Origin: a virus
Reading direction: 5' to 3' (one strand)
Length of the DNA: 45,645 nucleotides
Virus record (IMG/VR): IMGVR_UViG_3300017605_000491
Coordinates: 1 to 45,645 of that record
Part shown: piece by piece, positions 19,792 to 43,145 of the stretch
How the letters are laid out: every line of letters begins with the position of its first letter
Position numbering within the stretch: the first letter of the stretch is position 1
Program-made: the position numbers and the translations under genes
Notes under the pieces: generated by a model
Database searches by the model: none
What the model was told of the DNA's origin: nothing
Seen by the model: only the letters and a program-made list of their open reading frames with translations

Positions 19792-20047
19792 GGTGTTGTT
19801 CTCCTGTCAGTAGGGTGTGTTCCTGTGCTTCACGGAGGGACGTGGTCTCGAAGCGGCAGCCGCCCGCGCAGTCCCACTTGAAGCCCAACGGGGTTGGGGT
19901 GTCGATCGGCACGCGGCACTTCGAGAAGCCCTGACGGCAATGCGCGTTCGCCGCGTCGGCCTCCGGCGACTGCTGCCGGTTCTCGAAGTACATGCCCGAG
20001 AACTTCGTCCCGCAGGCGGGACAGAAGTATGTAAACGCGTGACTCAC
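19715..20047 (-). CDS. zinc-finger protein of unknown function
   Basis: GTG 20047 overlaps the previous stop (GTGA). The 110-aa protein has CPACG near the start and a CAGGCRFETTSLREAQEHTLLTGEQHH-type segment, where two Cys and two His are spaced like a C2H2 finger. The rest is polar. A TGTAAAC word lies at Phe-Thr (20029-20036). Zinc fingers in phage early genes often bind DNA or host proteins; nothing more can be said. Confidence 0.6.
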   Translation of the reverse strand: MSHAFTYFCPACGTKFSGMYFENRQQSPEADAANAHCRQGFSKCRVPIDTPTPLGFKWDCAGGCRFETTSLREAQEHTLLTGEQHHALVRQHYPDLGEYRDPATDRPRRA

Positions 20048-20259: not shown

Positions 20260-20753
20260 GGGACTCTCCTGACGATTTTGAATTCGGCGCGCAGCTTCAT
20301 CGCGACGTCTTGCTTGGCCTGGCTCGGGTGATCCATGAGCCAGCGCCACACCTCTTGCTCGGTCACTTCGGCCTCGACGATGGGCTCGGCCATGTGTCGA
20401 GACACCGACTCACGGAACGCGTCAGCGACGACCGCCCAGGCGCCGGGGTCGAACCCCACCGAGGGCATCGCACGCACGAGCTGTGTAAACGTGGCCCACG
20501 CGCGACTGATGGGGTCCTCCTGCGCATGGGTGATGGCGAACCCCGAGGTTGGGAGCGGCACGCCCAACATGGTCAGCTTGCCCTGCGAGTCGCCCCAATA
20601 CGTGTGCCCATCGGCGAGCTGCACGACGAATTGCATGTCGTCGCCCGGCACGTCGTACCACACGCCGTTGATGACCACCTTGTCTCGATAGGTGTCATCG
20701 TCGATCATCCCGAGGAGGCCCATGGGCTCTTCCTCGTAGGATTTGTCACTCAC
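20256..20753 (-). CDS. unknown protein, 165 aa
   Basis: Start GTG 20753 overlaps the end of the winged-helix gene by 8 bp. A later ATG (MGLLGMIDDD) is possible. Residues about 25-60 form beta structure (VVINGVWYDVPGDDMQFVVQLADGH). The C-terminal half is helical with EVTEQEVWRWLMDHPSQAKQDV, which could be a small helix-turn-helix. A GTGTAAAC word spells Thr-Phe-Thr (20483-20490). Function unknown. Confidence 0.58.
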   Translation of the reverse strand: MSDKSYEEEPMGLLGMIDDDTYRDKVVINGVWYDVPGDDMQFVVQLADGHTYWGDSQGKLTMLGVPLPTSGFAITHAQEDPISRAWATFTQLVRAMPSVGFDPGAWAVVADAFRESVSRHMAEPIVEAEVTEQEVWRWLMDHPSQAKQDVAMKLRAEFKIVRRVP

Positions 20754-21009: not shown

Positions 21010-21853
21010 TCGTCAGTCCCTCTTTCTTGGCGGCACGCTTCAGCGCCGCGAGTTGTTTCTTGTAGACCTTGGTCCAGTCGACGACCCACGCGTTTGCTGC
21101 GAGCACTTCCGCCTCGCCTGCCTTCTTCGCTTGCGTCGCCAGATGTCGCTCGGCCTTGCGGTACAGCTTGATGAAGCCCTTCAGCCACGCCTCGAAGGCG
21201 GGCCACCACTCTTCCTTCGGCTTCTTACCTCTACACACTGCCTTGATGATGTCTAGCTCGGGCTCGTTCGTGAGCATCCGGTCCCACTCGTGATCGGTGG
21301 GACCCAGCTCGTCGCCGTGCACGTTCCCCACGAAGCGACCCCGATAGGCGTCGATGGCGGCCTTGGCCTGGAGCACGGACGTCAGCGCGTAGCCGCCGCA
21401 GGGGTGTATCGAGATGTCCTTGTTTAAATGGCGTCGCCGCCTGATCCACGCTCGGAGTGAGTTGGCACAACACCGCCGGGCCTGCTTGCTCTCGGGCTTC
21501 TTGCCCTTCGGATCGCCGGGGTTGTGGCACATCGCTACGTTCATGATCTGCGCGTTGGTGAGCACGACGTCCGGCCACACCTTGCCGGGGCGCTTGCGAA
21601 TCTCGGCCATGCCGCCCGGCACGAGGTTCTCCAGCTTCCAGTAGTACGCGGCCCCCGAACGGGCGGGCCTGCCGTACGCGTATCCGGCCGCGACGCCTAG
21701 CTCTGCGTCGTCCTTCTCCGGCATCGAGAGCACGATGAGATGCTCCGCGTCTGCCGGCCCATCGGCCCCGACCTTGCGCTGGCCGTTTAACGGGCACACT
21801 TGACACAATGAGCCGTGTCGCAGGCGCCAGGCAACAAGGTCGGGGTGAGACAT
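20996..21853 (-). CDS. UDG-like protein (family 4 style Fe-S uracil-DNA glycosylase fold)
   Basis: The 285-aa protein starts ATG 21853 with GAGAGG upstream. It carries LCQVCPL (Cys17, Cys20), then LIVLSMPEKDDAELG and a GRPARSGAAYYWKLENL segment, VVLTNAQIMNVAMCHNP (Cys109), RRCCANSL (Cys128/129) and SIHPCGGYAL. Order and cysteine spacing follow family 4 uracil-DNA glycosylases, which hold a 4Fe-4S cluster, except that the water-activating and final His motifs are altered. It could remove uracil or a modified base, or be a non-catalytic relative. The C-terminal 100 residues are helical and Lys-rich. A Leu TTA codon lies in a TTTAAAC word (21422). Confidence 0.62.
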   Translation of the reverse strand: MSHPDLVAWRLRHGSLCQVCPLNGQRKVGADGPADAEHLIVLSMPEKDDAELGVAAGYAYGRPARSGAAYYWKLENLVPGGMAEIRKRPGKVWPDVVLTNAQIMNVAMCHNPGDPKGKKPESKQARRCCANSLRAWIRRRRHLNKDISIHPCGGYALTSVLQAKAAIDAYRGRFVGNVHGDELGPTDHEWDRMLTNEPELDIIKAVCRGKKPKEEWWPAFEAWLKGFIKLYRKAERHLATQAKKAGEAEVLAANAWVVDWTKVYKKQLAALKRAAKKEGLTNEHE

Positions 21854-21901: not shown

Positions 21902-22279
21902 TCAGGGTGCAACAGCCTGAACCGTAACACCCGTGACTTGTCCAGGGACAGCCGGCGCACGAAACGTGACCGGCGCGGACGCCGGCCCCCCTTCACCAAT
22001 CGCGTTTACACCTCGGAGGGTGGCACTGTGGTTCTGCCCCCGAGCGATGGTCGCCGGGAACGGCGCGTTCTTGCAGCGGACGCCAGCCGCCGCCACGCTA
22101 CCCGCGAGTACGTCCGGGTCCACCACGAGGGTGCCCACAGAAAACTCGATGGTCTTGGTGTCGACGTCGATGGCGTCGGTGTAGCACACACGCAGCGAGG
22201 CGGCGTGCGCCCAGGTTGGCGGGATGGCGATGGTGAGTGCGATCACCAGCGCCGTCAGCATTGCGAAGCGTTTCAGCAT
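21902..22279 (-). CDS. Sec-secreted small beta-domain protein
   Basis: ATG 22279 with CAGGAGA upstream. The 125-aa protein has a signal peptide (KRFAMLTALVIALTIAIPPTWAHA) and a mature domain with two cysteines (RVCYTD, VRCKNA) likely joined by a disulfide. Its end VTFRAPAVPGQVTGVTVQA resembles the start of a fibronectin type III strand. A reverse-oriented GTGTAAAC word codes Gly-Val-Asn (22004). It is isolated from its upstream neighbour by the structured leader at 22290-22440. An exported protein inside a replication block may change the envelope against superinfection; that is inference. Confidence 0.65.
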   Translation of the reverse strand: MLKRFAMLTALVIALTIAIPPTWAHAASLRVCYTDAIDVDTKTIEFSVGTLVVDPDVLAGSVAAAGVRCKNAPFPATIARGQNHSATLRGVNAIGEGGPASAPVTFRAPAVPGQVTGVTVQAVAP

Positions 22280-23124: not shown

Positions 23125-23394
23125 CTAGCCCCGATGGGGGGCGGGTTGTGGTGCGCGCTCGGCGTTGTCCGAGGCGTACTTGTTGGGCTCCCTCTTGGTG
23201 TCCGCGCGGCAGCAACGACATTGCGGGCCACCCTTCTTCGTCATCCAGTGGATGACACCTCCTGGTGCGAGCAGCGTGACACGCCACCCTCGCCAGCCTC
23301 GACACCGCCACTCAGGACGGGTGTACGGTTCGACTGTGTAAACGCTAGAGCCCCACACGGTGCGGGCTCTACTGTGTGCTTGTGCAGGACTCAT
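23125..23394 (-). CDS. small Cys/Arg/Trp-rich protein of unknown function
   Basis: ATG 23394, 89 aa. It is basic, with RCRGWRGWR and a CRCC cluster after GGPQ, possibly metal-binding. The ribosome site is weak, but the gene lies snugly between two supported genes (6 bp and 9 bp gaps). A GTGTAAAC word codes for Val-Tyr-Thr (23336-23343). No family is recognised. Confidence 0.48.
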   Translation of the reverse strand: MSPAQAHSRARTVWGSSVYTVEPYTRPEWRCRGWRGWRVTLLAPGGVIHWMTKKGGPQCRCCRADTKREPNKYASDNAERAPQPAPHRG

Positions 23395-23865: not shown

Positions 23866-24789
23866 CTAGTCCAGCGCGCTCGTGTCCGCGTCGACCGATT
23901 CCGATGCGGGTTGCTTCGCTTCTTCTTCCTGAAGGCGCCGCCACTGGTTGCACAGCCCTGCCTTGCCGACCGCGCAGTACCGAATGCACCGCACGCTCTC
24001 GCCGCCGCGCTTCTCGACCCACCACCCCTCGTTGCCCTCGATCATGTGCTCGGCTTCGCCTTTGATGTCGCACAGCTTGACGGCACTCTTGCGCTTCGGC
24101 TTCATGACCGCCCACTTGACGTCACCGACGTAGCGTTCCTCGTCGTCGCAGTCAGGTAGGTCGTCGTCCTCCAGCTCGCGCGCATCGACGTGCGCCGCTA
24201 GCCGCTTCATCAGGTAGTCTTCGGCGTGCTCGGTGGGCCACACTTCGATCGGGAGTGCCACCACAGCCTTCTCGGGGTACTTCCCCTTGCCGCCCTGGCG
24301 CCACATCCAATCCTGTAGGAGCGCGGTGATGCGCAGCTTGTCGATCACGTACCCGAACAGCTCGATGAGCCCAAGCCGATACAGGTTGACCTGCGCCGTC
24401 CACTCGTCCTTCGCCCCGTCGAGCACTGCCCAGACGCGTGTGTATTTATAGTCGTCCAGCAGGCCCTTGTTGGTGAGGACGAGCGAGTCGCCTTTCCCGC
24501 TGATCGTGTAAACGCGGCCCTTGTACTCACGCTTCAGAAAGAACCGCTCGGGTACGGCCAGCATGTCGGCACGCTCAAGGATCTGGTGGCCGATCTGCCC
24601 ATACAACGACCACAGCCGATCGCTCACGTCCTCGACCAGCTTGTCATCGTGACGCTGCAAGAGGATCTTCTGGCGGACGGGACCGATGAGCCCCGTCACG
24701 CTGAAGTCGGCATCTCCCTTGTCGTAGGGGTCGTTCGTGACAGCACGGACGATCGCCTCGGGGAGTTGTAGGTCGTTGGTGAACCTCAT
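23866..24789 (-). CDS. Cas4/RecB-like PD-(D/E)XK exonuclease
   Basis: The 307-aa protein from ATG 24789 has GQIGHQILE (His68), a GKGDSLV turn (Asp101), LLDDYKYTR (Asp113, Lys115) and WTAQVNLYRL (the QxxxY helix at 133-137), which together are the PD-(D/E)XK RecB/Cas4 nuclease signature. The C-terminus has RCIRYCAVGKAGLC, cysteines positioned like the Fe-S ligands of Cas4/AddB-type nucleases. It would resect DNA ends to give single strands for the Sak4 recombinase two genes upstream. It has no link to CRISPR here. A GTGTAAAC word codes Val-Tyr-Thr (24506). Confidence 0.83.
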   Translation of the reverse strand: MRFTNDLQLPEAIVRAVTNDPYDKGDADFSVTGLIGPVRQKILLQRHDDKLVEDVSDRLWSLYGQIGHQILERADMLAVPERFFLKREYKGRVYTISGKGDSLVLTNKGLLDDYKYTRVWAVLDGAKDEWTAQVNLYRLGLIELFGYVIDKLRITALLQDWMWRQGGKGKYPEKAVVALPIEVWPTEHAEDYLMKRLAAHVDARELEDDDLPDCDDEERYVGDVKWAVMKPKRKSAVKLCDIKGEAEHMIEGNEGWWVEKRGGESVRCIRYCAVGKAGLCNQWRRLQEEEAKQPASESVDADTSALD

Positions 24790-25026: not shown

Positions 25027-26045
25027 TTCGTTTCCTCCGCAGGCGTCGCCGCGACGGCGAGCCGATCGTTGAGAGCCGCGAGCATGTTTACACCCTCGGG
25101 CTCGGTGAGTGCCGCTGTGGATGGCTTCTGAAACATGCTGGTGAGCAGTGCACGTGCCGTGCCACCCCCATGCTTCTTGTCGACCTTGGCGCCCGTGTTC
25201 AGGCACGCCACGTACGTCTCGCGGCTGATGCCGCCGCTGATGATGGTCTTGTCGTTCACGACGAACGACCGGGAGAATTCCGGCGGGAGCCATTCGCCCG
25301 GAGGGGCGTTCAGCCACTCGCGCAGTTGGCGCCCGAGTGCCAGCCCCGGCTTGACGATGACGGCACCCTCCAGCCACGAGTCGAGCGCGTCGCCTTCGCC
25401 TGGGTCCAGCGTGCGCGCTTTCGTCACTCGCAGCGTGTGCGTCTGGTCCATGCTGCCGAGGATCGAAAACTCGTAGTCGAACCCTTCACGTTGGATGGGC
25501 TGAAGGCCGATCTTGCGCGGGGCGTTCTTCCCGTTCTCGTCCTTCTCGATGACGTAGTCCGACTTGACGCGCATCGTGACGATCACGTGGAGCGGAGCGC
25601 CGATCACCGCCTCGATGAAGCGGGTGTGTTTGGGTGTGGCCTTCCGCCAGCCCTTCTTGCTGAAGAACGCGTCTTCACCCGCCTGCGTGTCGACGTATTC
25701 GAGGATGCCATTCTTGCCGGCCCACTCGTGTGACACGCTGTCGATGAGCAGCCCGTCGTACCCGGCCGCCGCTGCGGCGTTGATCGCCTCGATGTACGTC
25801 TCAGCGGAGCAGTCGTTCAGAGCCACCATGTCGAAGCCGGTGGGCTGACGCGTGCCGGGAAACACCCCGGCGTACTCCAGTATCGACTCTTTCTCGGTGT
25901 CGACCACTGCGAGCCGCCCGTCCGGGCCGACGACACCACGAAGGATCGCCAAGCCGGAGACACTCTTGCCGGAGCCCGAAGGTCCGTCGATCGCCATACG
26001 CAGCTTGCGCTTGCGGCGCTCTGCGGGTTTAAATTCTATCCCCAT
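25023..26045 (-). CDS. Sak4-like RecA-family ATPase / recombinase
   Basis: ATG 26045 starts 340 residues: MGIEFKP then Walker A GPSGSGKS (21-28), ILRGVVGPDGRLAVVDTEKES typical of Sak4/AAA_24 proteins, and Walker B GLLIDSVSHEW (Asp102). Sak4 proteins bind single strands and promote annealing together with phage SSB. Here the Cas4-like nuclease and SSB-like gene follow in the same operon, giving a complete recombination set. The C-terminal 100 residues are variable. A reverse GTTTACAC word codes Gly-Val-Asn (25086), and a TTTAAA word spells Phe-Lys right after the start. Confidence 0.85.
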   Translation of the reverse strand: MGIEFKPAERRKRKLRMAIDGPSGSGKSVSGLAILRGVVGPDGRLAVVDTEKESILEYAGVFPGTRQPTGFDMVALNDCSAETYIEAINAAAAAGYDGLLIDSVSHEWAGKNGILEYVDTQAGEDAFFSKKGWRKATPKHTRFIEAVIGAPLHVIVTMRVKSDYVIEKDENGKNAPRKIGLQPIQREGFDYEFSILGSMDQTHTLRVTKARTLDPGEGDALDSWLEGAVIVKPGLALGRQLREWLNAPPGEWLPPEFSRSFVVNDKTIISGGISRETYVACLNTGAKVDKKHGGGTARALLTSMFQKPSTAALTEPEGVNMLAALNDRLAVAATPAEETK

Positions 26046-27000: not shown

Positions 27001-27350
27001 CCGTAGCAACCGCGACACGTCTCACTACAGAAGCCGTCGTCGTGGTATGCGTCCTTGCGCTTGATGGTCTCGCGGGGCTTCATCGAACATAGTGCGGCGT
27101 TGTATCGCTCGATGATGCTGCGCACGCCGTTGTCGCCCTCGATCGCGAAGTCCTTGATGATGGCGTCGTGCTCCACCTTCAGCTCGTCGCGATCTTCGGT
27201 CATGTTCTGGAGCGCAATTCGGAGGTTGTGGTTGCGGTCGCGCAGCTCGTCGTTGCGTGCATAGGCATCGTCACGCTGCTGCGTCGCCTCGTTTAAAGCC
27301 GCGCGCATCTCTTCCACGCGACCCGCCCATTCTGCTGCTGACGGGGGCAT
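26994..27350 (-). CDS. coiled-coil protein with Cys-rich tail
   Basis: ATG 27350 overlaps the previous stop (TGATG). The 118-aa protein is a long coiled coil (EEMRAALNEATQQRDDAYAR, LRDRNHNLRIALQN) and ends GFCSETCRGCYGC, four cysteines in 11 residues that could bind zinc or iron-sulfur. A Leu TTA codon lies in a TTTAAAC word (27291). Function unknown; a DNA- or membrane-tethered oligomer is possible. Confidence 0.6.
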   Translation of the reverse strand: MPPSAAEWAGRVEEMRAALNEATQQRDDAYARNDELRDRNHNLRIALQNMTEDRDELKVEHDAIIKDFAIEGDNGVRSIIERYNAALCSMKPRETIKRKDAYHDDGFCSETCRGCYGC

Positions 27351-27809: not shown

Positions 27810-28008
27810 CGTTCATCCAGTCGCCGCGACCCACTTGTCCCTCGACCAGCGGACGGAGGCGAGCACGCTCGCGTTTACACGCACCGGGACGGTCGTTGCA
27901 GCGTTGCCACCGACCCATCGGTGTGAGCATGGCCGACTCGGCTCGGCGTGCCTCGGCGCTCGCGCGTCGTGTCTCTCGGGCTTCGCGCCCTCGTCGCATG
28001 TGTCTCAT
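27793..28008 (-). CDS. small Arg-rich protein
   Basis: ATG 28008 overlaps the previous stop (ATGA). The 71-aa product is very basic (MRRGREARETRRASAEARRA) with cysteines in QRCND and GACKRERA. It may bind nucleic acid. A reverse GTTTACAC word (27873-27880) falls in frame as Cys-Lys-Arg. It overlaps the next gene by 17 bp. No family is recognised. Confidence 0.5.
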   Translation of the reverse strand: MRHMRRGREARETRRASAEARRAESAMLTPMGRWQRCNDRPGACKRERARLRPLVEGQVGRGDWMNDAPAS

Positions 28009-28449: not shown

Positions 28450-28845
28450 TTATGCCGCGAGTCGCCTTCGTTCCACTAGCTCGGCGTCGTCGAAGCGAAA
28501 CAGACATTGACGTTTGCCCACCAACACGTCGCGGCGCGGTACGCGGTAGATCGCGAGTCGATACCCCGCTTCGTGGAGCAGCAACCGCACACACCCGAAC
28601 CACAGATGCGCGAGCCGCTTATGTGGGAAGCCGCAATAGTAGTCTTCCAGCTCGTCGGCGCCCTCGAAGACGCGACCGCCCTCGAAGCGTTCATAGTTGC
28701 CAGTCCAATGGCGTTTGATCGTGGGGCGCTCGCGAGTCGCACCGTTTAAATAGTCTGGGAAGCCCCACCATACTTGGTCTTCTGACCCGATGTAGGGACC
28801 ATGCCCCGAATCATTCTCGATACGATATACCAACACGAATCGCAT
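28450..28845 (-). CDS. unknown protein, 131 aa
   Basis: ATG 28845 follows AGGAGGA at ideal spacing. Residues MRFVLVYRIENDSG and WWGFPDYLNGATRERP suggest a beta-rich start, then ELEDYYCGFPHKRLAHLWFGC and a basic C-terminus. A Leu TTA codon lies in a TTTAAAC word (28744). Function unknown. The strong ribosome site contrasts with the overlap style of neighbours and may reset translation. Confidence 0.6.
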   Translation of the reverse strand: MRFVLVYRIENDSGHGPYIGSEDQVWWGFPDYLNGATRERPTIKRHWTGNYERFEGGRVFEGADELEDYYCGFPHKRLAHLWFGCVRLLLHEAGYRLAIYRVPRRDVLVGKRQCLFRFDDAELVERRRLAA

Positions 28846-28854
28846 ACGTTCCTC

Positions 28855-29127
28855 CTATACTGCCAGGCTACGCACCTCGGCATCAGTGAGACACAATGCA
28901 TGAGGCATGCCCATGGGGCACGCGGGACCGCCGTCCATTTCGATGTCCACCATGAGGCGATACAAGCCACGTGCGGCAGCGATGTGCCATGCACGAGCAC
29001 GTGACGTAGTCGCCTCTTCAGCTAGGGCAATGTGCCGCAAGTAGCGCGCACGCATCACGGGGGTTTCGTCGCTGGCCACGGCACCCACCCCGCCTACATC
29101 GGGGGTGGGTGCAAGCGTCGTGCTCAT
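28855..29127 (-). CDS. unknown helical protein, 90 aa
   Basis: ATG 29127 overlaps the metallopeptidase stop (ATGA). After a Gly/Val-rich start it has a helical core (RARYLRHIALAEEATTSRAR, WHIAAARGLYRLMVDIEMD) and ends with CPMG and CLTDAEV. Tied to the SprT-like gene, it may be its small partner. No family is recognised. Confidence 0.57.
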   Translation of the reverse strand: MSTTLAPTPDVGGVGAVASDETPVMRARYLRHIALAEEATTSRARAWHIAAARGLYRLMVDIEMDGGPACPMGMPHALCLTDAEVRSLAV

Positions 29128-29885
29128 TCCGTTGCCGCTTCCAATGCGAAGAGACTTCCGCACGTACACGTGGGAAGCCCACGGCTTGCCCATTTCATCG
29201 TCACACGCACGATGTAGCCGCACGAGGGGCACGACGCTTTGAGTAGGCGCGTCGTCTGCGTCGGCTTGGGTGGAAGCGGGGGCAACGTGGGACCATTGTT
29301 GCTCGGACCCACCGTGACGTTGACGCCGCCGCTCGGCGGGGGCGGTATCAGCGAGGCGTGCGGGTACGGGGGCAGCCCCGCCGCATCTAGGGCAACGGCA
29401 AGCGTCGCTTGCAAACGATCGTTCGGGTACGCTTGCGCCGGCCACGTTCCCTTGTGATCGCGTCCCGACTTGGTCAGCCCTAGCTGCGAGCAGAGGGCGC
29501 CAAAGTGGTCCGCGTCGTGATCGTGCTCCGTTCCCACCGTGGCGTGCGCTAGCTCATGAAACAGCACGCACAGCACGTCAAGCCCGTTGTCAAGCGTTGG
29601 GCTGATAAATATTTCGGTCGTGCCGGCGCTCGACGATGCCGGCGGGTAGCAGACACCCAACGTGCACCCCTCGTACCCCGCACCCGTCCACCCGCACGAG
29701 ACTTTGAAGGGGGGCACCGTGCGCCCCGCTTCCTCGAATCGAGGGACGAGCACGGCAAACGCGGCTTCCATGAGCCACGCCTCACGCGTGGGCTGCGAGT
29801 CAATCCATTCGCGCCAAGTCGGCTCGGCGCATTCGCCGTGCTCGTCAAGGTCCGGGGCGCATTCGACTGCCGTTGCTTCACTCAT
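29124..29885 (-). CDS. SprT-like zinc metallopeptidase-fold protein with zinc ribbon
   Basis: ATG 29885, 8 bp inside the VWA-like gene. The 253-aa protein has FHELAHATVG (His110, Glu111, His114) with a later His127 in HDADHFGAL as likely third ligand, the SprT/gluzincin pattern. Near the start FKVSCGWTG, YEGCTLGVC and TEIFISPTL give the strand and cysteine context seen in such proteins. The C-terminus carries CPSCG and CTCG, a zinc ribbon after a Pro-rich linker. SprT and Spartan relatives cut DNA-bound proteins, and related phage proteins sit beside MoxR and VWA genes. Catalysis is expected but not shown. Confidence 0.75.
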   Translation of the reverse strand: MSEATAVECAPDLDEHGECAEPTWREWIDSQPTREAWLMEAAFAVLVPRFEEAGRTVPPFKVSCGWTGAGYEGCTLGVCYPPASSSAGTTEIFISPTLDNGLDVLCVLFHELAHATVGTEHDHDADHFGALCSQLGLTKSGRDHKGTWPAQAYPNDRLQATLAVALDAAGLPPYPHASLIPPPPSGGVNVTVGPSNNGPTLPPLPPKPTQTTRLLKASCPSCGYIVRVTMKWASRGLPTCTCGSLFALEAATE

Positions 29886-30780
29886 AACAAGTTTCCTCGC
29901 CTTCCGCGTCGTCGGTGCAATCCACGCCGAGACGCTGTTTCACTAGTGCCAAGAGGGACGCGCACGTGGGCGCAACGTCGCCATTGTAGAGGGACGGGAT
30001 GTAAACGCATCGGTCGCCCCACGTTTGCGACACGACGGCCGGAGTCAACGCGAGGGCTGACCCGTACCCGAATTCGTATTCGGCCGAGACATCGGCACGA
30101 GGCGTTAGCTCCTGAAGTCGGAACATGACCCGACGCAGAAAAGCGGGGTGCGCCATCGCAACGAGGCGTTGCGAGTCAATGGGTTCGCCCGCATTGTTGA
30201 CTTGCACGGCGTTGCAATAGGGGAGGGCGCCGAACCCTTGCGAGTCAATGGCGATCACTTCAATGGGATTGCCGTTCGCCTCGATCACGAGGCATGCCGC
30301 CGCGATGGCGCACATACGCGCCTCGATCACGGCGGCACGCACGTGGGCGCTCGTCCCTAGATCCACGATCATGCGAACCAAGCCGCGTTCGCCTGCCCCG
30401 TTCGGGGTGGGTGCAAGCCAGCATTCCGGCCGTCCCTCGATCACGGCCGGCATGTCGAAAAACGCGCCGGTCGTGTCGTATGCGTAATCGTAAAACGCAC
30501 GCGTTTGGATCGCCTTTGCGGCTTGCTCGCGTGCCGTTTGCTCTATGCTCCGTTGCCCCGCCTTCCACTTGGTTCGCCCCATCGTCAAGTCAACGGCGCC
30601 GCTGTAGCCCATGTCAAGGTCCCACGTGCGGCGGGGTTCGGTGTAGAGGGCTGCGCATCGGGTGCGGAAGTCGCCCGAGACTTCCGACGTCAACGCATGG
30701 GTCAGCCGCTCCCATGAGTAGTGGCGGAAGTCAGCCCACGTGATCGCGGGCTCGGGCGTCGGTGTCGTGCTTTCGCTCAC
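29878..30780 (-). CDS. VWA-like (DUF7192-type) partner of the MoxR ATPase
   Basis: GTG 30780 overlaps the MoxR stop (GTGA). The 300-aa protein has a short disordered start, a WADFRHYSWERL segment, then in the middle a VWA-like core: RMIVDLGTSAHV with a degenerate MIDAS (Asp140-x-Gly-x-Ser144), helix RMCAIAAACLVIEANG, and strand IEVIAID. This order matches DUF7192-like phage proteins to my knowledge. In bacteria MoxR ATPases act on VWA partners to load metals or remodel complexes. The pair is followed by an SprT-like gene, forming a trio at the start of the early operon. Confidence 0.68.
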   Translation of the reverse strand: MSESTTPTPEPAITWADFRHYSWERLTHALTSEVSGDFRTRCAALYTEPRRTWDLDMGYSGAVDLTMGRTKWKAGQRSIEQTAREQAAKAIQTRAFYDYAYDTTGAFFDMPAVIEGRPECWLAPTPNGAGERGLVRMIVDLGTSAHVRAAVIEARMCAIAAACLVIEANGNPIEVIAIDSQGFGALPYCNAVQVNNAGEPIDSQRLVAMAHPAFLRRVMFRLQELTPRADVSAEYEFGYGSALALTPAVVSQTWGDRCVYIPSLYNGDVAPTCASLLALVKQRLGVDCTDDAEGEETCYE

Positions 30781-32009
30781 GGCTTCACCTTGATTGCCGG
30801 CATGGGACATGCCGCAAGAATTTTCGAGGCGACTGCGCCCTCAATTCCTTGGAACAACGCCGCGTCAGCGATCATGCGAAGTGACAAGCCACCCCGCCCT
30901 AGCATCGCAACGCCCGAGTAAATGGCACGAGGCGAGCACGTCAACGCGGGGTAATCGGTCGCGCAATAGGCGCGCACGGCGTGCACCCATTGCGCCCACG
31001 CGTCGGCTGCGTCGGGAAAGTCAGGGAGCATGCCCCGTGCAATCGTTCGCTCGTGCTCGGGTGCGTACGTCCACGCGAGGAAGGCGAACCGATCGCGGAA
31101 AGCACGATCGAGGGGGCGCCGCTCGGGAAAGGCGATCGTGGGACCCATGCCGGGCGTGTTACCCGTGGCGATCACGACGCAATCGGGGTGCCTCGCGATC
31201 ATGCCGTCAGGGAACGATGCGAGCCCGTTCGCGAGGGCTGAATTCAACGAGGCGAGTAGGTTCGCGTTCGCGTTGTCTGCCTCGTCAATGGCGAATACCC
31301 CGCCGTGCTCGTACACGTGGCGGAAGTCGGTGGACACGTAGCGTCCCTGTGCGTCCATGTAGCCCGTCAGGAGGGACGGCATCGCCATGGGAGTCAGGGA
31401 CGCGTACCGGTAATCCAAGCCGAGGGCTTGCGCCACGCTCGCACTAGCGTAGCTCTTGCCGGCACCGGGTGCACCGTGCGTGTAAACGTTGCGGCACGCT
31501 TCCACCATGGTCAGGAGGGACGCGAATTGCGGGTGCGCGTCGGGAATGGTCGTGCTCGTACCGTCCGGTCGTTTGGCGATCACGTGCGTTCGGGTCAGCA
31601 CGTTGTCGCGCGTGCCTCGTGCGAACCCCGCACGCTCCATGATCGGCATAAGCCCACGTGCGAGGGCTTCCATGGCAGGGTCCGCCGTCGTCGGCGGGGT
31701 GCCGGCATCGTTGCACGAGGGCCGCGCCTCGATCACGTCCGGGGTGGGTTCGGTGCCGGCCGTCATGTCAATTTCATCGTCGGCCGGAATGTCCACCGTC
31801 GTGCCGCCGGCCGTCGTGTGCGTGATGCCGCCGGGCGTGGCGCCGTCCGGTGCCGGGGCGCACGCGTCGTGATACGCGCGTCCCTTGGGCTTGCGCCCCG
31901 CCGTGAGCGGCTCGTCCGGCCGCTCCCATGTGATCGCCTCGCCTGCCGGGAACGGTCGCCCGCACCCTACGCAGACACCGGGAAACTTCGATTGCATCCT
32001 ACGTCGCAT
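30777..32009 (-). CDS. MoxR-type AAA+ ATPase with N-terminal zinc finger
   Basis: The first gene of the minus block, ATG 32009 with GAGG upstream, 410 aa. Residues 13-16 CVGC and a later HDAC form a zinc finger. After a disordered linker (about 55-115) comes the AAA+ core: Walker A GAPGAGKS (179-186), pore-side TGYMDAQGRYV, Walker B FAIDEAD (239-245), sensor ATGNTPG (281-287) and PLDRAFRDRFAFL arginine-finger region. This is the MoxR/RavA subtype. It likely remodels the VWA-like partner. A GTGTAAAC word codes Val-Tyr-Thr just before Walker A (31480). Confidence 0.88.
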   Translation of the reverse strand: MRRRMQSKFPGVCVGCGRPFPAGEAITWERPDEPLTAGRKPKGRAYHDACAPAPDGATPGGITHTTAGGTTVDIPADDEIDMTAGTEPTPDVIEARPSCNDAGTPPTTADPAMEALARGLMPIMERAGFARGTRDNVLTRTHVIAKRPDGTSTTIPDAHPQFASLLTMVEACRNVYTHGAPGAGKSYASASVAQALGLDYRYASLTPMAMPSLLTGYMDAQGRYVSTDFRHVYEHGGVFAIDEADNANANLLASLNSALANGLASFPDGMIARHPDCVVIATGNTPGMGPTIAFPERRPLDRAFRDRFAFLAWTYAPEHERTIARGMLPDFPDAADAWAQWVHAVRAYCATDYPALTCSPRAIYSGVAMLGRGGLSLRMIADAALFQGIEGAVASKILAACPMPAIKVKP

Positions 32010-32949
32010 CGTGCTGCCTCACTTTCCGCCGTCGACTCCATGGGACGGCACCCATCCGACGTGCAAACGGCGTGCCCCATGTAAACGTAGGAAAGTCAAG
32101 GGGGCGCCGGCCGGCATAGCGGCACGATTGGCACACTATGGTGCAAACGTGACACACGGCGTGCCATCGGCGGCACGAGGGACGAGGGACGCGGGGTGCG
32201 TGCGTGCTGGCGTTCGTGGGACTGACGACGCACGCTTGACGAGGGGGCAAGCGGGGCAAGAGGCGTGTAAACGTTGGGGCTGCCTCGCCTCGCGTGCTCG
32301 CGTCCCATCGCAGCGTCGAGTACAGCAATCAAGGAATGCAAGAGCCGTGCCATGCGGAGGGTGACGTGTCGTGCGCCGCGTCGGGCGCTATGGTGCGGAG
32401 CACATGGCCCCCTTTGGGCCTGCCGCATCGAATGGTGGATGTCACGCCTGACGAATCCGCAGCAAAATTGCGGGTTTCGTCACAATGACGCCCATGCGGA
32501 GGGCACAGCACGCAGGTCGAGGAGAGCCGCATCTGGGCACTTGAGGCGCGGAGGGTGTAAACGTCCCGTGAAAACGCCCGTTCCGGGGGCCACGGAACGC
32601 CCTTCGGCGGCGTCCGGCGGCGTGCGCTCCCTCCGGTCGCGCGGGGGCGGGCGTCGTAAGGGTGTGAATGTAAACGAGTGGTGCGCAGGTGCCGTGCGTT
32701 CTGCTGGAGACATGTCAGCCAAACGGCGCGGTGACGTACGGCGAGAGCCCGGCATCCCGGCGCCCAACTCATCAGCGAAACAACCGTTAGAGCACCACGA
32801 AGAACTAAGGGGTTGTATTCGCTGCGCTTGCCCCGAAATTCGTCTAACTGCCGGCTCTTGGGGGTACGTCTCCGCGCGGTTTCGCTGACAAGTCCTCATC
32901 AACCCGCAGGTTGCCCAATTCGTAGAACAGGGTTGCACACCAGGGCGAC
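32010..32949. other. divergent non-coding region between early and late operons
   Basis: About 940 bp without a convincing gene, between the minus-strand MoxR start and the plus-strand small-terminase start. Long open frames exist (for example 32274-32888) but are Arg/Cys-rich, have no ribosome sites and look like shadows of a GC-rich sequence. It should contain the divergent promoters and perhaps an origin. Seven same-direction TGNAAACG elements are the clear structure; no confident -35/-10 pair was found for the minus strand. Low gene density and repeats make it the best regulatory or replication-control candidate. Confidence 0.7.
32061..32677 (+). repeat. array of seven TGNAAACG elements, all same direction
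   Basis: Sites on the plus strand: GTGCAAACGG 32061, ATGTAAACGT 32079, GTGCAAACGT 32141, GTGTAAACGT 32265, GTGTAAACGT 32554, GTGAAAACGC 32567 and ATGTAAACGA 32668. The shared pattern is RTGNAAACG; read on the minus strand it is CGTTTNCAY. Spacing is irregular (18, 62, 124, 289, 13 and 101 bp), unlike classic iterons. None lies at a -35/-10 pair I could recognise. A phage protein that binds this octamer, for gene control or replication start, is the simplest reading. Confidence 0.65.
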
Positions 32950-32950
32950 G
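32910..32950 (+). promoter_or_regulatory. possible late promoter block upstream of the small terminase gene
   Basis: TTGCCCAATTCGTAGAACAGG followed by GTTGCACAC lies just before GTG 32950. It shares AATTC and GAACAGGGTT in the same order with the promoter-like block at 38381-38409. A good -10 is not evident here, so an activator site or variant promoter is possible. Confidence 0.35.
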
Positions 32951-33585
32951 TGCGTTACACGTGGGGGGTGAACGACGAGACGGGCACGGAAGTTGCTACG
33001 TCGCCGACCGAGCCCGACGTCGTCGAGCACGAGATCGAGCGGCGGTACGCGTGCGAGAGTCTCAATGAGGGCGATAAGCAAGCCCTCCGGCGTGCAAAGG
33101 TCCTGAATGAGACTCTGAAGGCGGGGCAGACGATTGCCGAGGCCGCTCGGGCGCTCGGCGACATCAGCCGCTCGGCGCTTTCGCGATTCGCGAACAGCGA
33201 TCTATACCCCGCGTGTCTCCGCATCCTCGCGCGACCCAAGGACGTGCTCCAAGCCGAGGAGGCCGAGAGTGCGATCAGCCGCGCCAAGCACATCCTCGCG
33301 CTCACGCTCCCGAAGGCGGTCGAATATCTGCGGTCGTGTCTGGAGAACGACGTCACCACCGGGCGGCCGGCGGACGATTCACTCGCGCAGTGGGCGACAC
33401 AGGAGCTACTGAAGCTGGGCGCGTTGAAGCAGGATGGTGCGGTGGCCGGCGCTGGCGCCGTCATCACCCCCGAGGCGATGCGCGTGTTGCTCGGCGCGAT
33501 CCGTGGCGACGACAAGAAGCGCGAAGGGGCTGTCACCGTGACGGCGACCGTCGTGCCTGCACTCCCCGGACCCGTCAGTGGTTAG
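32950..33585 (+). CDS. terS: putative small terminase subunit (terS)
   Basis: GTG 32950 has AGGG at about 5 nt; a GTG at 32968 is the alternative start. The 211-aa protein is helical with a helix-turn-helix-like stretch (AGQTIAEAARALGDISRSALSRFANS), a coiled-coil region and a basic end. It lies directly before an HNH protein and the large terminase, the usual position of the packaging recognition subunit. It would bind the pac or cos site and hand DNA to TerL. Assignment rests on position, size and the HTH, since small terminases are poorly conserved. Confidence 0.6.
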   Translation: MRYTWGVNDETGTEVATSPTEPDVVEHEIERRYACESLNEGDKQALRRAKVLNETLKAGQTIAEAARALGDISRSALSRFANSDLYPACLRILARPKDVLQAEEAESAISRAKHILALTLPKAVEYLRSCLENDVTTGRPADDSLAQWATQELLKLGALKQDGAVAGAGAVITPEAMRVLLGAIRGDDKKREGAVTVTATVVPALPGPVSG

Positions 33586-33925
33586 CCCGCGTCGTCCCTC
33601 CACGCCGCTCACGCGCCGTCGTGTGCGCAAAGCTGGCAGCACGTACCGTGTCGATCTTCGGCGCGAGATGATAGCCGCGTACGGCGGCATGTGTACGTGC
33701 TGCTCAGAACCTCACCCGGAATTCCTCTCGCTGGAGCACACCGCCGGAGACGGCGCGGAGCATCGGCGCAAGGTCGGCAAGAATGGCCAAGCACAACTCG
33801 TAGATCTGAAGCGACGCGGCTGGCCCAAGGACGGGTACACCGTCCTCTGCTTCAACTGCAACATCGCGAAGGGCGCGCACGGGAAGTGCCCGCACCAAGT
33901 CGAACGCGAGGCCGCTCATGAATAG
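33578..33925 (+). CDS. HNH-type zinc protein next to terminase
   Basis: GTG 33578 overlaps the terS stop by 8 bp. The 115-aa protein has GGMCTCCSEPHPEFLSLEHT then a later YTVLCFNCNIAKGAHGKCPH, with two Cys pairs and the His of an HNH beta-beta-alpha fold. Basic N-terminal residues favour DNA binding. HNH proteins beside terminases are known to help cut DNA during packaging in several phages. Its end overlaps the terL start by 8 bp, so the three genes are coupled. Confidence 0.76.
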   Translation: MVSPRRPSTPLTRRRVRKAGSTYRVDLRREMIAAYGGMCTCCSEPHPEFLSLEHTAGDGAEHRRKVGKNGQAQLVDLKRRGWPKDGYTVLCFNCNIAKGAHGKCPHQVEREAAHE

Positions 33926-35783
33926 CGACGCGTTCGTTGAAGAGATCATGGCGCCCCTCGGAGGCGTCGAGAAATGGTACTACCGCCGCGATACGGATTA
34001 CTCGAAGCATGGGTCTTACCTCATGCCACGCCAACCGCCGACGCGGTTCTGGCTCGATCCGGCGCTTACCGGGCGTCCGGTTGCCGAGGCCCGCCGGTTG
34101 GCCGACATCGTTCGTGCGATCGACAACAACGAGGAGCTGTTCCAAGGCGACTTCGTGGACTACATGCGCCTGCGCGGCCTCGCAGACTTGTTCTTCTTCG
34201 CGAAGTACCTGTGCGGGCACAACTGGCTGGCGCCGGACCTTCACGGCCCGCTCGCGTGGGCGTGGCAGGCACCGAACGGGTGGCAGTCGCCGGACGGGCA
34301 GACGTACGACAAGTACCGGCTCGCTATCCTCGCACGGTCGCACTTGAAGACTACGCTGCTGACGCAAGACGCGGCGCTGTTCGATGCGATGCGCGATGTC
34401 GAGGAACGCATTCTCATCTTCACCCACTCCCTCGGCTTCACCCAGGACGTTATGTCGCCGATGAAGACGCTACTCGAAGGCGAGGGCAAAGGCGCGGAGC
34501 TGTTTCACTTGTGCTACGGCGATCGTATCCCCGAGCCCCACGAGCGCGGCAAGAAGTACAAGTGGGACATGCTCAACCTCACGCTCAAGCGCGAGGGGCG
34601 CTACACGGACGCGACCATCAAGGGCTCCGCAGTCGGCGCGAAAGTCACCGGCACGCACTCGACGAAGCAGTACGTGGACGACTTGGTGGGCGAAGAGCTG
34701 GGCCGCACGCTGATGGAGAAGACCATCAAGCAGCTTGAGAACCTGACGTACTGTTACCACTCACTGGCACTCGGTGAGCGGCGCATCGTCGGCACGCCGT
34801 GGGGATTCTGGGACCCCCTCGCGTACTCGCGTCGGCACTGGCCGGACGCGATGGTCGCGCGTCTCCCGTGGCGCCGGCCCAACGGGGAGCTGCTGTTCGA
34901 CAAGTGCGACGTGCCCGAGGCGCTTCGCATCAAGAAGCAGAACCCGTGGTTCTTCTCGTGTCAGTACGACGTGTGGCCGAAGGACGAGGGAAAGAACGGC
35001 TTCCAGTCGGATTGGTTTCGCAACTTCGTGCGTGACGATGACTACCTCGTCCGCTTGGATGCAGAGGGCAAACGCGGCAAACGGGTGCGACTTGAAGATT
35101 GCAATGTGTTCGTCATCATCGACCCGAACACGGGTCGCGTGCCGGGTCAGAAAGTCTCGATGGACGCGAACGCGCCGACGTCGCGTGCGCTGGATTATGC
35201 GGGCTTCATCACCGTCGCCGTTGATCGGGAACGCAACTACTACGTGCTGTCCGCGATCCGTCGCCGTTGCAATAGCGCGGAGCTAGTCGACCTGACGTTC
35301 CAGCTCGTCAACATCTGGAACCCGAAGAAGGTCATCATCGAGCAACGCGCGGCACAGATCCTCTTCGTGGATCTATTCAGGAACGCGTGGCGTCTCGGCA
35401 AAAAGCCGTTCATTGTGGACGACTTCCCCGGCGGCCACGCATCCAAGGAAGAGCGCATCAAGGGCCTCATCCCGCTGTTCGCGAACGGGCTCGTGTACTT
35501 CCGCGAGGGCGGCGGTGCCGAAGTCCAAGCGGGTATGACGGCGCTCGAAGGCGAGCTGACGGACTTCCCCAACGCCGAGTTTGACGACCTGTCGGACGCG
35601 CTCTCGGTTGTGCTGAAGAAGTGTTACGCGCCGGGCGAGCCAGCCCCCGCGATCGAAGGTGCGAGTCGTGACGAGCGTTTCGAGGCGAGCATTGCGGCGT
35701 TGGATGCCGGCTCGCGTCGTGCCGCACGCGGCTGGCAGAACCGTAAAACGAAAAACAACAACGAGTTTTTTGCCGAGGGCTAG
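33918..35783 (+). CDS. terL: large terminase subunit (terL)
   Basis: ATG 33918; 621 aa, a normal length. It is the packaging motor and headful or cos nuclease. The ATPase half has ARSHLKTTLL (139-148), a P-loop variant known in some TerL groups, and KQYVDDLVGEE (250-260) as Walker B. The nuclease half has VIIDPNTG (Asp402), KVIIEQ (Glu475) and EFDDLSDAL (Asp557-560), the three acidic groups of the RNase H-like domain. The C-terminal tail is charged and Asn/Lys-rich. It sits with terS and HNH before the portal, as in tailed phages. Confidence 0.93.
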   Translation: MNSDAFVEEIMAPLGGVEKWYYRRDTDYSKHGSYLMPRQPPTRFWLDPALTGRPVAEARRLADIVRAIDNNEELFQGDFVDYMRLRGLADLFFFAKYLCGHNWLAPDLHGPLAWAWQAPNGWQSPDGQTYDKYRLAILARSHLKTTLLTQDAALFDAMRDVEERILIFTHSLGFTQDVMSPMKTLLEGEGKGAELFHLCYGDRIPEPHERGKKYKWDMLNLTLKREGRYTDATIKGSAVGAKVTGTHSTKQYVDDLVGEELGRTLMEKTIKQLENLTYCYHSLALGERRIVGTPWGFWDPLAYSRRHWPDAMVARLPWRRPNGELLFDKCDVPEALRIKKQNPWFFSCQYDVWPKDEGKNGFQSDWFRNFVRDDDYLVRLDAEGKRGKRVRLEDCNVFVIIDPNTGRVPGQKVSMDANAPTSRALDYAGFITVAVDRERNYYVLSAIRRRCNSAELVDLTFQLVNIWNPKKVIIEQRAAQILFVDLFRNAWRLGKKPFIVDDFPGGHASKEERIKGLIPLFANGLVYFREGGGAEVQAGMTALEGELTDFPNAEFDDLSDALSVVLKKCYAPGEPAPAIEGASRDERFEASIAALDAGSRRAARGWQNRKTKNNNEFFAEG

Positions 35784-36137: not shown

Positions 36138-38359
36138 TGGCTGACGCGAAGATCATCGGCGTGACCGAGACGAAAGCCCCGAAGACGCTCAATCAGCGCG
36201 TCACGGACTATCACAAGCAGCTCGTGGAGAAGTTGAGCCAGGGGCGGCTCGAAGTGATGCGCAACGCCCTGGAGAACGTGCTGTACTTCCTCGGGCACCA
36301 GTGGATCACGTTCGACGCGATCCTCCACAACTTCCGTGGGACCAACGTGTCGAAGGGCACGCCGCGTCCCGTCGTGAACATCTTCAAGGCGAAGATCAAG
36401 AAGTTGATCGCGCTGCTGGCGAGCATCGACCCCGAGCTGGGCGCGAGCCCGACGAACGACACGGAGATTGACCGCCTGACGGCGGACTCGTGTCTCGACA
36501 TCATCCAATTCATCGAGAAGTCCGTGGGCTTCGACGAGCTGCGGCTGGCGCTCGCCACCACAGTCGGTCTCTGCTCCAACGGCTTCCTCATCACCAGCTA
36601 CGACCCGGACGGCGGCTCCGTCGAGCGTATCCCGAAGTGGGAGTGTGAGAACGAGCACGTGTGCTCGGCCGACGACGCGCAAGAGGCGGGCCTGGCGTGC
36701 CCCGAGTGCGGCAAGCCGTTGGCTCCGAGTACGACCGAATTCGACGAGATCCCGCAAGGCGGCATGGTGTCCGAAGTGTCCACCGTCTTCGAGACGTGGG
36801 TCGACTGGACGATCCCCCGCCAGCGCGATCAGCCGGCCTTCCTGTTCCGCCGGATGCGTCCGCTGGAGTGGGTGCACGAGCGGTACCCCGAGATGGTCGG
36901 CAAGATCCCCGAGGACTCCGCGCCTTCGGACATCGGGCTCACGTACCTCCAGAACATCATCCGGCTGGCGCCGACGCTGGGCGGGCGCTTCGGCGCGTCG
37001 GGTCGCTTCACGCGCTCGTGCGTGGTCGACGACATGTACGTGATGCCGTGCAAGGAATTCAAGAAGGGCCTGTGGGCACGCATCCTGATGGACGGGCGCG
37101 TGTTGGAGTCGAAGCCGCTGATGTTCCACGACGGGACGGAAGAGGCACCCGGCAAGCCCTTCCTGCCAATCACCCACTTCGGGTTCGACAACGTGCCCGG
37201 CACGATGCTGTGCGTGGGTCCGGCCGACGATCTGAAGTCGCCGCAGCGTGAGCGCAACCGGCTGCTCGCCTCGGTGTCGCTCTACTTCGCGCGCACCGCC
37301 AACAGTATGGTGTGGCTGCCCGAGGGCATCGACGTCACCAGCGTCTACGGCATCGAAGGCGCGGTCCTCCGGGGCAACACCACGGCGGCCGGCGGCGGCG
37401 AGCCGAAGCGCATCGAGGCGGCGGCCCTCTCCGCTGCGTTCGTCCAACGCTTCGATCAGATCGACAACGAGATGAACGAAATCATCGCGCTGTACGAGCT
37501 GCAAGACGAGGCGCCCCGGATCGACTCGGGCTACGCCATGCAAGTGCTCGAAGAGAAGAAGCACCAGGCGCACATCCCCCTCTTCAAGAAGTGGGAAGGG
37601 TCGTACGTCGATTGGGCACGCAAGGCGTTCTGGATCTGGCGCAACTTCGCTCCCGATTCTCTGTATGCGAAGATCGCTGGTGCAAACGCTCGATGGACCT
37701 TTAAACAGATCAAGAAGGCCGACCTTCGTGGCGGCGTCGACATCGACATCGAGCCGGGCTCGGGCTTCCCCAAGTCGCCTCTGAAGAAGCGGGCGATGTA
37801 CGAGCAGATGGTGCAGATGGGGATTGCCGACCCCGTCAACGATCCGAAGACCAAGTGGATGTACGCGCGACTGTTCGGCGCTCCCGAGCTGAACCAGGCG
37901 TACGACCGCGACATGCGCCACATCGCGCGAGAGCACGACATGGTGGTGGCGTGGAACGCGGAGCACTTCGACGAGCAGGGGCAGCCGAAGGACGGCGACG
38001 TGGCACCCGAGCAGTCGTGGCCGGTGTTCGTCGACCCCGACATCGACAACCTCCAGTTGCACTGGATGGAACACCGTTCGTGGATGATGACCGAGGAATT
38101 CATGAACCTCGCGCCCGCCACGCAAGAGCTGTTCCGCATGGTCCACTTCCAGCCGCACGCCATGCTGCTCGGCATACAGATGCAGATGCCGAACGGCCCG
38201 CAGGCGGTCGACGCCGAGAACCCTGGCCAGAACAGCGCCGGGCAGGCGCAGGCGGGTGGACAGGCCACCAGTAACGCAAACTCCGCAGCAACCAAGACCG
38301 CCGGGGGCGGCGGCTACGCGGCACGATCCGAGTCGGATCGCGCAGATGCGGCCGAATAG
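36137..38359 (+). CDS. portal protein with inserted zinc-ribbon motif
   Basis: A 740-aa protein, the length of P22-type portals, forming the 12-subunit ring through which DNA enters. The N-terminus KTLNQRVTDYHKQLVEKL and FYLGHQW-like region FLGHQWITFD leads to RPVVNIFKAKIKKLIALLASIDPEL, typical of portals. Residues 170-191 hold CENEHVC and CPECGKPL, a four-cysteine zinc ribbon as an insertion, then FETWVDWTIPRQ. The C-terminus is Ala/Gln/Gly-rich. The start overlaps the previous stop. The zinc insert is seen in only some portals and its role is unknown. Confidence 0.85.
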   Translation: MADAKIIGVTETKAPKTLNQRVTDYHKQLVEKLSQGRLEVMRNALENVLYFLGHQWITFDAILHNFRGTNVSKGTPRPVVNIFKAKIKKLIALLASIDPELGASPTNDTEIDRLTADSCLDIIQFIEKSVGFDELRLALATTVGLCSNGFLITSYDPDGGSVERIPKWECENEHVCSADDAQEAGLACPECGKPLAPSTTEFDEIPQGGMVSEVSTVFETWVDWTIPRQRDQPAFLFRRMRPLEWVHERYPEMVGKIPEDSAPSDIGLTYLQNIIRLAPTLGGRFGASGRFTRSCVVDDMYVMPCKEFKKGLWARILMDGRVLESKPLMFHDGTEEAPGKPFLPITHFGFDNVPGTMLCVGPADDLKSPQRERNRLLASVSLYFARTANSMVWLPEGIDVTSVYGIEGAVLRGNTTAAGGGEPKRIEAAALSAAFVQRFDQIDNEMNEIIALYELQDEAPRIDSGYAMQVLEEKKHQAHIPLFKKWEGSYVDWARKAFWIWRNFAPDSLYAKIAGANARWTFKQIKKADLRGGVDIDIEPGSGFPKSPLKKRAMYEQMVQMGIADPVNDPKTKWMYARLFGAPELNQAYDRDMRHIAREHDMVVAWNAEHFDEQGQPKDGDVAPEQSWPVFVDPDIDNLQLHWMEHRSWMMTEEFMNLAPATQELFRMVHFQPHAMLLGIQMQMPNGPQAVDAENPGQNSAGQAQAGGQATSNANSAATKTAGGGGYAARSESDRADAAE

Positions 38360-39230: not shown

Positions 39231-39686
39231 ATGCCGACTCTACGGGCACGCTATTCGTTTACACTCATCTCGGGAACGGTTGGGCAGGAGTTTGCCCAGC
39301 CGTTCATCCCACCGTCGATCGAGTTGGACAGCGCGCCCCTGCGCTACGTTGTGGAGGTTCCCGCCGACAGCACCGTGACCATTTGGGACGCGGCTGCTGG
39401 CGGCGCTAATCCCACGGCGTTCAAATTCCTGCTCATGCACTCCGACATCGAAGTCGAGGTGGAGCAGACCGTGGAGGCGGCTGGACCGCTGACATCCCTC
39501 TCTACGTTTACACTTGCCGAGAACCACATCCCGTTCATCCTCGGCAGCGACATCGCTCGGGCCTCGGCCGACTTCGACGGTGACGCGTTCGCCAACGGGA
39601 CGCTCGGCGTCATCACCAAGCTGCGCGCGAAAAATTCGAGCACCGACACCAGTGCCTTCATCGAAGTCGTGGTGGGCGGTGCGTAA
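39231..39686 (+). CDS. beta-rich late protein, decoration or head-associated candidate
   Basis: ATG 39231 right after the previous stop; 151 aa. Rich in Val, Thr and Ala with alternating strands (FTLISGTVGQEFAQPFIPPS, VEVPADSTVTIWDAA, IEVEVEQTVEAAG), like capsid decoration or tail-needle type domains. Two GTTTACAC words spell Phe-Thr-Leu (39257, 39506). Position before the scaffold suggests head association, but no family is recognised. Confidence 0.5.
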   Translation: MPTLRARYSFTLISGTVGQEFAQPFIPPSIELDSAPLRYVVEVPADSTVTIWDAAAGGANPTAFKFLLMHSDIEVEVEQTVEAAGPLTSLSTFTLAENHIPFILGSDIARASADFDGDAFANGTLGVITKLRAKNSSTDTSAFIEVVVGGA

Positions 39687-43097: not shown

Positions 43098-43145
43098 TCT
43101 TCAGGGAGAGGGACAGCCAGCGTTTAAAGAAGAGGGAGACTCACC

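Follow-up and report, generated by a model that had tools for sequence, protein, structure and literature searches.

The divergent region and its sites

The window, that is, the whole stretch of viral DNA analysed here (45,645 nucleotides, IMG/VR record IMGVR_UViG_3300017605_000491), contains a non-coding gap of 940 bp (32010-32949) between two divergently oriented genes. The leftward gene on one side encodes an AAA protein (CobS/MoxR-like; 30777-32009). The rightward gene on the other (32950-33585) gives a weak HTH match and is followed by HNH (33578-33925) and TerL (33918-35783) genes; the gap precedes the TerS, HNH and TerL genes.

The original prediction, made from the window alone, described seven same-direction copies of RTGNAAACG in this gap, and all seven are present on the plus strand (Table 1). 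Six of them read RTGYAAACG, where the genome's own density leads one to expect about 0.4 (Poisson P = 5e-6), and nowhere else in the genome are the putative binding sites packed so densely. The start-to-start spacings of all seven sites are irregular (18, 62, 124, 290, 13 and 100 bp), the GC content of the bin 32001-33000 is 64%, no AT-rich stretch was seen in the sequence, and the GC skew of the window tracks only the change of gene direction. Scans yielded no promoter or terminator matches and no Rfam families, and the motif copies have no conserved flanks, which argues against sigma-promoter sites as well as against the iteron and cosB readings considered below.

Table 1. Positions of the sites, repeats and protein features in the window
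Feature	Position	Strand	Remark
Cluster site 1	32061-32069	+	GTGCAAACG
Cluster site 2	32079-32087	+	ATGTAAACG
Cluster site 3	32141-32149	+	GTGCAAACG
Cluster site 4	32265-32273	+	GTGTAAACG
Cluster site 5	32555-32563	+	GTGTAAACG
A variant	32568-32576	+	GTGAAAACG; probably chance match
Cluster site 6	32668-32676	+	ATGTAAACG; matching place in L051 (2771-2779) holds ATGCAAACG
Hairpin-forming stretch	32402-32492		conserved, 77% identical
28-bp stretch	32621-32648		identical in L009, GC-rich; cosN candidate
Three-copy repeat upstream of TerS	32709-32894		L051 2796-2995; L009 953-1135
SprT-like protein gene	29124-29885	-	253 aa; phrog_6361 (PHROG E 3e-28); proposed site reader
HExxH metalloprotease motif	29544-29558	-	HELAH, residues 110-114
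C-terminal module	29163-29264	-	QTTRLLKASCPSCGYIVRVTMKWA...; proposed DNA-reading part, predicted separate fold; presence/absence matches sites
Site upstream of SprT-like gene	29999-30007	+	ATGTAAACG; ~120 bp (121 bp) upstream
Scattered RTGYAAACG	2397-2405	-	
Scattered RTGYAAACG	3897-3905	-	
Scattered RTGYAAACG	5414-5422	-	
Scattered RTGYAAACG	7109-7117	+	
Scattered RTGYAAACG	9158-9166	-	
Scattered RTGYAAACG	14117-14125	+	
Scattered RTGYAAACG	14438-14446	+	intergenic
Scattered RTGYAAACG	14919-14927	-	
Scattered RTGYAAACG	17793-17801	+	
Scattered RTGYAAACG	20029-20037	+	
Scattered RTGYAAACG	20483-20491	+	
Scattered RTGYAAACG	22003-22011	-	
Scattered RTGYAAACG	23336-23344	+	
Scattered RTGYAAACG	24506-24514	+	
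Scattered RTGYAAACG	27872-27880	-	
Scattered RTGYAAACG	31480-31488	+	
Scattered RTGYAAACG	37680-37688	+	
Scattered RTGYAAACG	39256-39264	-	
In-gene site	39505-39513	-	GTGTAAACG; kept exactly in L051
Sister word MTTTAAAC	5065-5072	-	
Sister word MTTTAAAC	7989-7996	-	
Sister word MTTTAAAC	11935-11942	-	
Sister word MTTTAAAC	15399-15406	-	
Sister word MTTTAAAC	16817-16824	+	
Sister word MTTTAAAC	18406-18413	-	
Sister word MTTTAAAC	21422-21429	-	
Sister word MTTTAAAC	26027-26034	-	
Sister word MTTTAAAC	27291-27298	-	
Sister word MTTTAAAC	28744-28751	-	
Sister word MTTTAAAC	37699-37706	+	
Sister word MTTTAAAC	43122-43129	-	

Enrichment of the word in the window

The core was also correctly predicted to be scattered through the genome: 20 copies of RTGYAAACG lie outside the cluster, giving 26 in all against 0.9 expected. 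Related forms are likewise in excess, with 21 copies of TGTAAACG (0.29 expected), 31 of TGNAAACG (5.4 expected) and 28 of RTGNAAACG (2.5 expected), the last a count reached in none of 100 shuffles. When the genes were shuffled by codon, keeping every protein and the codon usage, none of 300 shuffles reached the 21 observed copies of RTGTAAACG; the mean was 5.5, which includes the non-coding copies, as these cannot be shuffled. An R stands before the core, and the third position is taken by T or, weakly, by C. The C and A variants named in the original prediction hold up only in part: C is weakly enriched (7 vs 5.0), whereas the A form TGAAAACG occurs once against 1.9 in the codon-shuffle null, so that GTGAAAACG in the cluster is probably a chance match. 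The true core in the window is RTGTAAACG.

The scattered in-gene sites fall in more than one reading frame, which makes a cause at the DNA level likelier than one at the protein level; together with the codon shuffle, this argues against codon usage and protein repeats as explanations of the excess. Nineteen of the 20 scattered RTGYAAACG lie inside genes, and 14 of 17 scattered RTGTAAACG run antisense to their host gene (P 0.013 against a proportion of 0.5, but P 0.08 against 0.6, the value for an assumed 3:2 codon-frame bias). The evenness with which the sites are spread in the window is not significant (P 0.19). A sister word, MTTTAAAC, differs from the first at one base and occurs 12 times, the codon-shuffle mean of TTTAAAC being 1.6; in other phages it accompanies the first word, as GTTTAAAC.

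The word in other phages

A pattern search of IMG/VR for two GTGTAAACG near each other returned many contigs. Of 147 matches, 98 were coding repeats with a spacing that is a multiple of 3, and these served as controls. A second class comprised contigs that are unrelated to one another (39-75% GC) and in which the sites are scattered, many GTTTAAAC being frequent besides. The core of the scattered motif is GTGTAAAC, with GTTTAAAC as its sister word, and taken across phages it reads GTKTAAAC. The excess can be large, as in a contig of 74% GC with 13 GTGTAAACG against 0.06 expected. Moreover, in most genomes tested the sites are spread more evenly than at random, for instance in G059 (P 0.002), G079 (P 0.003) and the Streptomyces phage LazerLemon (CV 0.57, P < 0.0005), with several other genomes below 0.05.

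According to BLAST, the only proteins common to the window and the second-class contigs are the SprT-like protein of 29127-29885 and, in some, a distant TerL. The family of the former, phrog_6361, whose phage members are annotated as SprT-like proteases, was found in 23 of 37 second-class contigs, including all eight motif-positive ones above 30 kb that were fetched whole, but in none of 10 coding-repeat controls. Two second-class contigs, L131 (101 kb) and L118 (30 kb), are without phrog_6361, yet have 4-5 sites. Another 44 contigs, for which the criterion of choice was not the motif but an exonuclease or a distant terminase, hold 0-2 GTGTAAACG and 0-5 GTKTAAAC, with no clear SprT-like gene and one marginal match.

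A SprT-like protein with a C-terminal module

SprT/SPRTN (Spartan) metalloproteases consist of a SprT-like domain with an HExxH motif, followed by a zinc-ribbon-like tail. The window protein resembles them in both respects, although the SprT-like family of Pfam is reached by the homolog from phage Dismas and not by the window protein itself. In an AlphaFold2 model (alignment of 14 sequences, mean pLDDT 67), a fairly confident SprT core (approximately residues 34-170) precedes a linker that is disordered (184-211), after which a compact element at the C-terminus (approximately 212-250, pLDDT ~80) lies apart from the SprT domain. The protein is taken to be a predicted Spartan-type zinc metalloprotease domain that a flexible linker connects to a small C-terminal module, zinc-ribbon-like in type. 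What distinguishes the phage tail from those of the SprT/SPRTN family is its signature, TR[ML]LK...CGYxVRxTxKW (in the alignment, K.[QT].TR[ML].K...C..CGY.VR.T.KW), the presence of which is tied to that of the sites. Its invariant residues are Q210, T212, R213, L215, A217, C219, Y224, R227, K231, W232 and A233.

This tie emerged from named phages that were chosen by their SprT-like protein alone and in which distinct GTKTAAAC places were counted. The motif is met again, in many cases at even intervals, among phages that infect Microbacterium, Arthrobacter, Streptomyces, Dinoroseobacter, Klebsiella and others; of the window proteins, only the SprT-like one is common to all motif-bearing phages. 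The SprT-bearing phages split by site count because the module is present in some and absent from others. All 11 with the module have 2-41 places (LazerLemon and Crosby 41 each, Zeta1847 22, Caron 19, Emotion 17, Dinoroseobacter R5C 17, MaGuCo 15, Arya 7, ECO1230-10 5, Mano 4 and F_TK1718 2 in 29 kb), whereas all eight without it have none (Dismas, Quenya, Bachaco, Celaena, Brahms, Epa5) or one (MW2, CN1); the Fisher P of 1e-5 is overstated, as few lineages are involved and all module-less SprT phages fall into two groups. The same division holds among Microbacterium phages. No sites occur in phages without a SprT-like protein (GMA4, Triumph, Isolde, Partridge, MW202554), and site density is 0.36 per kb in module-bearing phages but 0.003 in those that lack the module or the protein. 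The reversed pattern is near zero in all phages save Klebsiella KA2-1, where it has 5 matches against 15 for GTKTAAAC. LazerLemon has 40 GTTTACAC against 0.04 expected and R5C 17 GTTTAAAC sites, while ECO1230-10 (5 vs 1.0 expected) and Arya (7 vs 1.0) exceed expectation only modestly. Module-less proteins end differently, for example in KSRSGKSIKL...GEDYVVSISKARL. In a prediction made in advance, the module was represented by alignment coverage, and this misplaced Bachaco and Quenya, the sequences of which then proved module-less; for both, the module rule was therefore applied after the fact.

Non-coding DNA makes up only 9% of the genome of the temperate Microbacterium phage Caron, yet 10 of its 19 sites are intergenic (P 1e-6), and most of these lie 9-38 bp before a start codon. 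Given this bias and the even spread elsewhere, regulatory and genome-wide structural roles are both possible.

Two side observations concern the same phages. In Bachaco, Quenya and Celaena (L262, L263, L266), which have no sites, a gene with a ParB-like nuclease domain directly follows the SprT gene. The Arthrobacter phage Emotion (L259-L261) has, besides GTGTAAAC, an excess of GTTTCACG (20 against 0.8 expected) and of TTCACGTG (14 against 0.5), which together resemble the bacterial parS half-site.

A site beside the SprT gene

Fifteen of 20 genomes have a site between -150 and +90 relative to the start of the SprT gene, often 25-45 bp before it, where density alone would, by rough arithmetic, account for two to four. 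These offsets are approximate, as starts in unannotated contigs were taken from open frames. Even phages with only 2-7 sites (F_TK1718, Mano, ECO1230-10, Arya) have one at this gene. A site near the gene of its own reader is the usual mark of autoregulation, which ties the sites to the SprT gene; we infer that the SprT-like protein controls its own gene through the adjacent site.

Proposed mechanism

As the sites occur almost only in phages with a module-tailed SprT-like protein, that protein probably reads the word. The explanation that we consider best, and hold to be moderately probable, is that it recognises the site (core RTGTAAACG in the window, GTKTAAAC across phages) through its C-terminal module and regulates its own gene through the adjacent copy, as well as other genes. 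The cluster would serve as its principal operator region, placed where the early operon, which runs leftward, and the late (terminase) operon, which runs rightward, part from each other; there, the bound protein may silence or switch the flanking promoters. At the scattered sites, it may be held along the genome, there to block transcription, to organise the DNA or to place the protease. Direct binding by the module and the operator function of the cluster are both inferred from sequence comparison, and the reader could also be a partner or host protein with the same specificity. The earlier idea that a single protein reads both cluster and scattered copies is probably correct, although the comparison between phages points to the zinc-ribbon-like module of the SprT-like protein rather than to the early wHTH and zinc-finger proteins that had been proposed.

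Two other readers deserve closer attention. A host protein, such as a replication, segregation or recombination factor, might read the sites in a Chi-like manner, with the SprT-like protein as a co-travelling helper that, for example, removes the host protein from DNA. The more-than-random evenness of the sites in most genomes tested would suit such an architectural or recombination role, but the hosts span actinobacteria and proteobacteria, the Microbacterium phages have sites only where they have the module, and the site beside the sprT gene suggests autoregulation; we thus regard a host reader as rather unlikely.

Slightly less likely still is a stoperator-type system, in which a repressor of the phage would prevent initiation at the cluster and stop elongation wherever the scattered sites lie. 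In this manner, Cluster A mycobacteriophages such as L5 and TipsytheTRex carry more than 20 short asymmetric sites in promoter regions and genome-wide, all read by one phage protein (PMC9283540). This reader is a two-domain HTH repressor, and its 13-bp sites, the stoperators, lie in short intergenic spaces and are oriented with transcription (PMC9283540). The window resembles these phages in having asymmetric sites dispersed over the genome, in similar number (~26 in 46 kb) and with copies in a promoter region; the antisense orientation of most scattered RTGTAAACG and the position of the sites before start codons in temperate Caron would also agree. It differs in that nearly all scattered sites lie inside genes and not before them, which would be unusual for a classical regulator, in that the linked protein is SprT-like, and in that one word is common to very distant phages with very different hosts, unlike those of immunity repressors. 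Furthermore, the orientation bias weakens against the assumed codon-frame bias, no integrase or repressor was recognised among the window proteins scanned (a subset of the ORFs), and the palindrome GTTTAAAC, which many phages use, has no direction.

Close relatives and a packaging-like region

Only four contigs with a closely related terminase were found, and none of the relatives found was in a bacterial genome. L051 (the same contig as L010; TerL 74% identical) contains three RTGYAAACG that point the same way within the homologous gap and a single copy in the remainder of its 13.4 kb, and shares an exact 11-bp match (ACGTTTACACT) around the GTGTAAACG at 39505, in a host gene that is only 64% identical. 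L009 (TerL 82% identical), by contrast, has no RTGYAAACG in 4.2 kb. Of the proposed master regulatory zone, it is the regulatory role at the early/late divide that fits, with L051 having its sites there.

An origin of replication with iterons, as originally suggested, would explain why direct repeats are gathered in a single non-coding stretch where two operons diverge. It is nevertheless very improbable, given the irregular spacing, the high GC content without an AT-rich zone, the absence of sites from L009 and their thinness in L051, and the scattering of the same sites through genes.

The most conserved non-coding blocks of the gap are the hairpin-forming and 28-bp stretches. Upstream of TerS, the window, L051 and L009 share a repeat of two direct copies and one inverted copy, the first two being 56-58 bp apart; the sequence of the repeat varies between the three phages and agrees within each. 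This is the pattern expected of small-terminase (cosB-like) sites, and the repeat is probably a better target for TerS than RTGYAAACG; with the 28-bp block, it resembles a cos region in which recognition sites and terminase have changed together. RTGYAAACG was therefore not assigned to TerS. That the cluster sites themselves are cosB sites, as their place before the terminase genes and beside a candidate cosN might suggest, is the most improbable of these readings, since a separate repeat varies in concert across the three phages and L009 retains the packaging layout without any RTGYAAACG. A conserved 19-mer (GGGTTTCGTCACAATGACG) was set aside, as its probe matched an unrelated gene.

Relation to known systems

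To our knowledge, no member of the SprT/SPRTN family has been described with a cognate DNA word. Likewise, no description of a pairing of this module and motif was found among the open-access papers listed for TGTAAACG, GTTTAAAC and GTGTAAACG in phages. Another phage with many repeats throughout its genome is Corndog (Cluster O), which is not obviously temperate and has more than 30 copies of a 17-bp repeat of unknown function, about a third of them in coding DNA (PMC4351075). That repeat is a dyad, TGTTCGG-N3-CCGAACA, is confined to Cluster O and has no known reader (PMC4351075), whereas the enriched words of the window are TGTAAACG and TTTAAAC.

If the SprT-like protein does read the word, it is possible, and we propose it tentatively, that this represents a system widespread among phages, with a protease of the Spartan type that has its own sequence-specific module, matching sites genome-wide and autoregulation, and that is stationed along the phage DNA. 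A protease so placed might remove proteins that are bound or crosslinked to the DNA, protect the genome or organise it. The comparison gives a large group of phages, with hosts from Streptomyces to Klebsiella, a common DNA word that seems to have gone unnoticed, together with a named candidate for its reader. What SprT-like proteins, annotated in phages without known function, do there becomes directly testable, and a way opens to study the control or protection of phage genomes as a whole.

Other genes and words

The protein encoded at 14943-16484, an AAA+ orphan whose C-terminus weakly matches a winged helix, was rejected as a reader, as no relatives were found and its model (pLDDT 34) was useless; it lies beside the polymerase and may be an initiator or helicase. 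The Family A DNA polymerase itself seems to be split over separate genes (16361-17821, 18242-19255 and 12546-13334), with the exonuclease part approximately 3 kb from the polymerase part. Finally, the contigs L012 and L024 have over-represented words of their own, which are GGGGCTAGCGGG-like (GGCTAGCG, 14 vs 0.5) and CCCGTGTTGGTCGC-like (CCCGTGTT, 15 vs 0.4).
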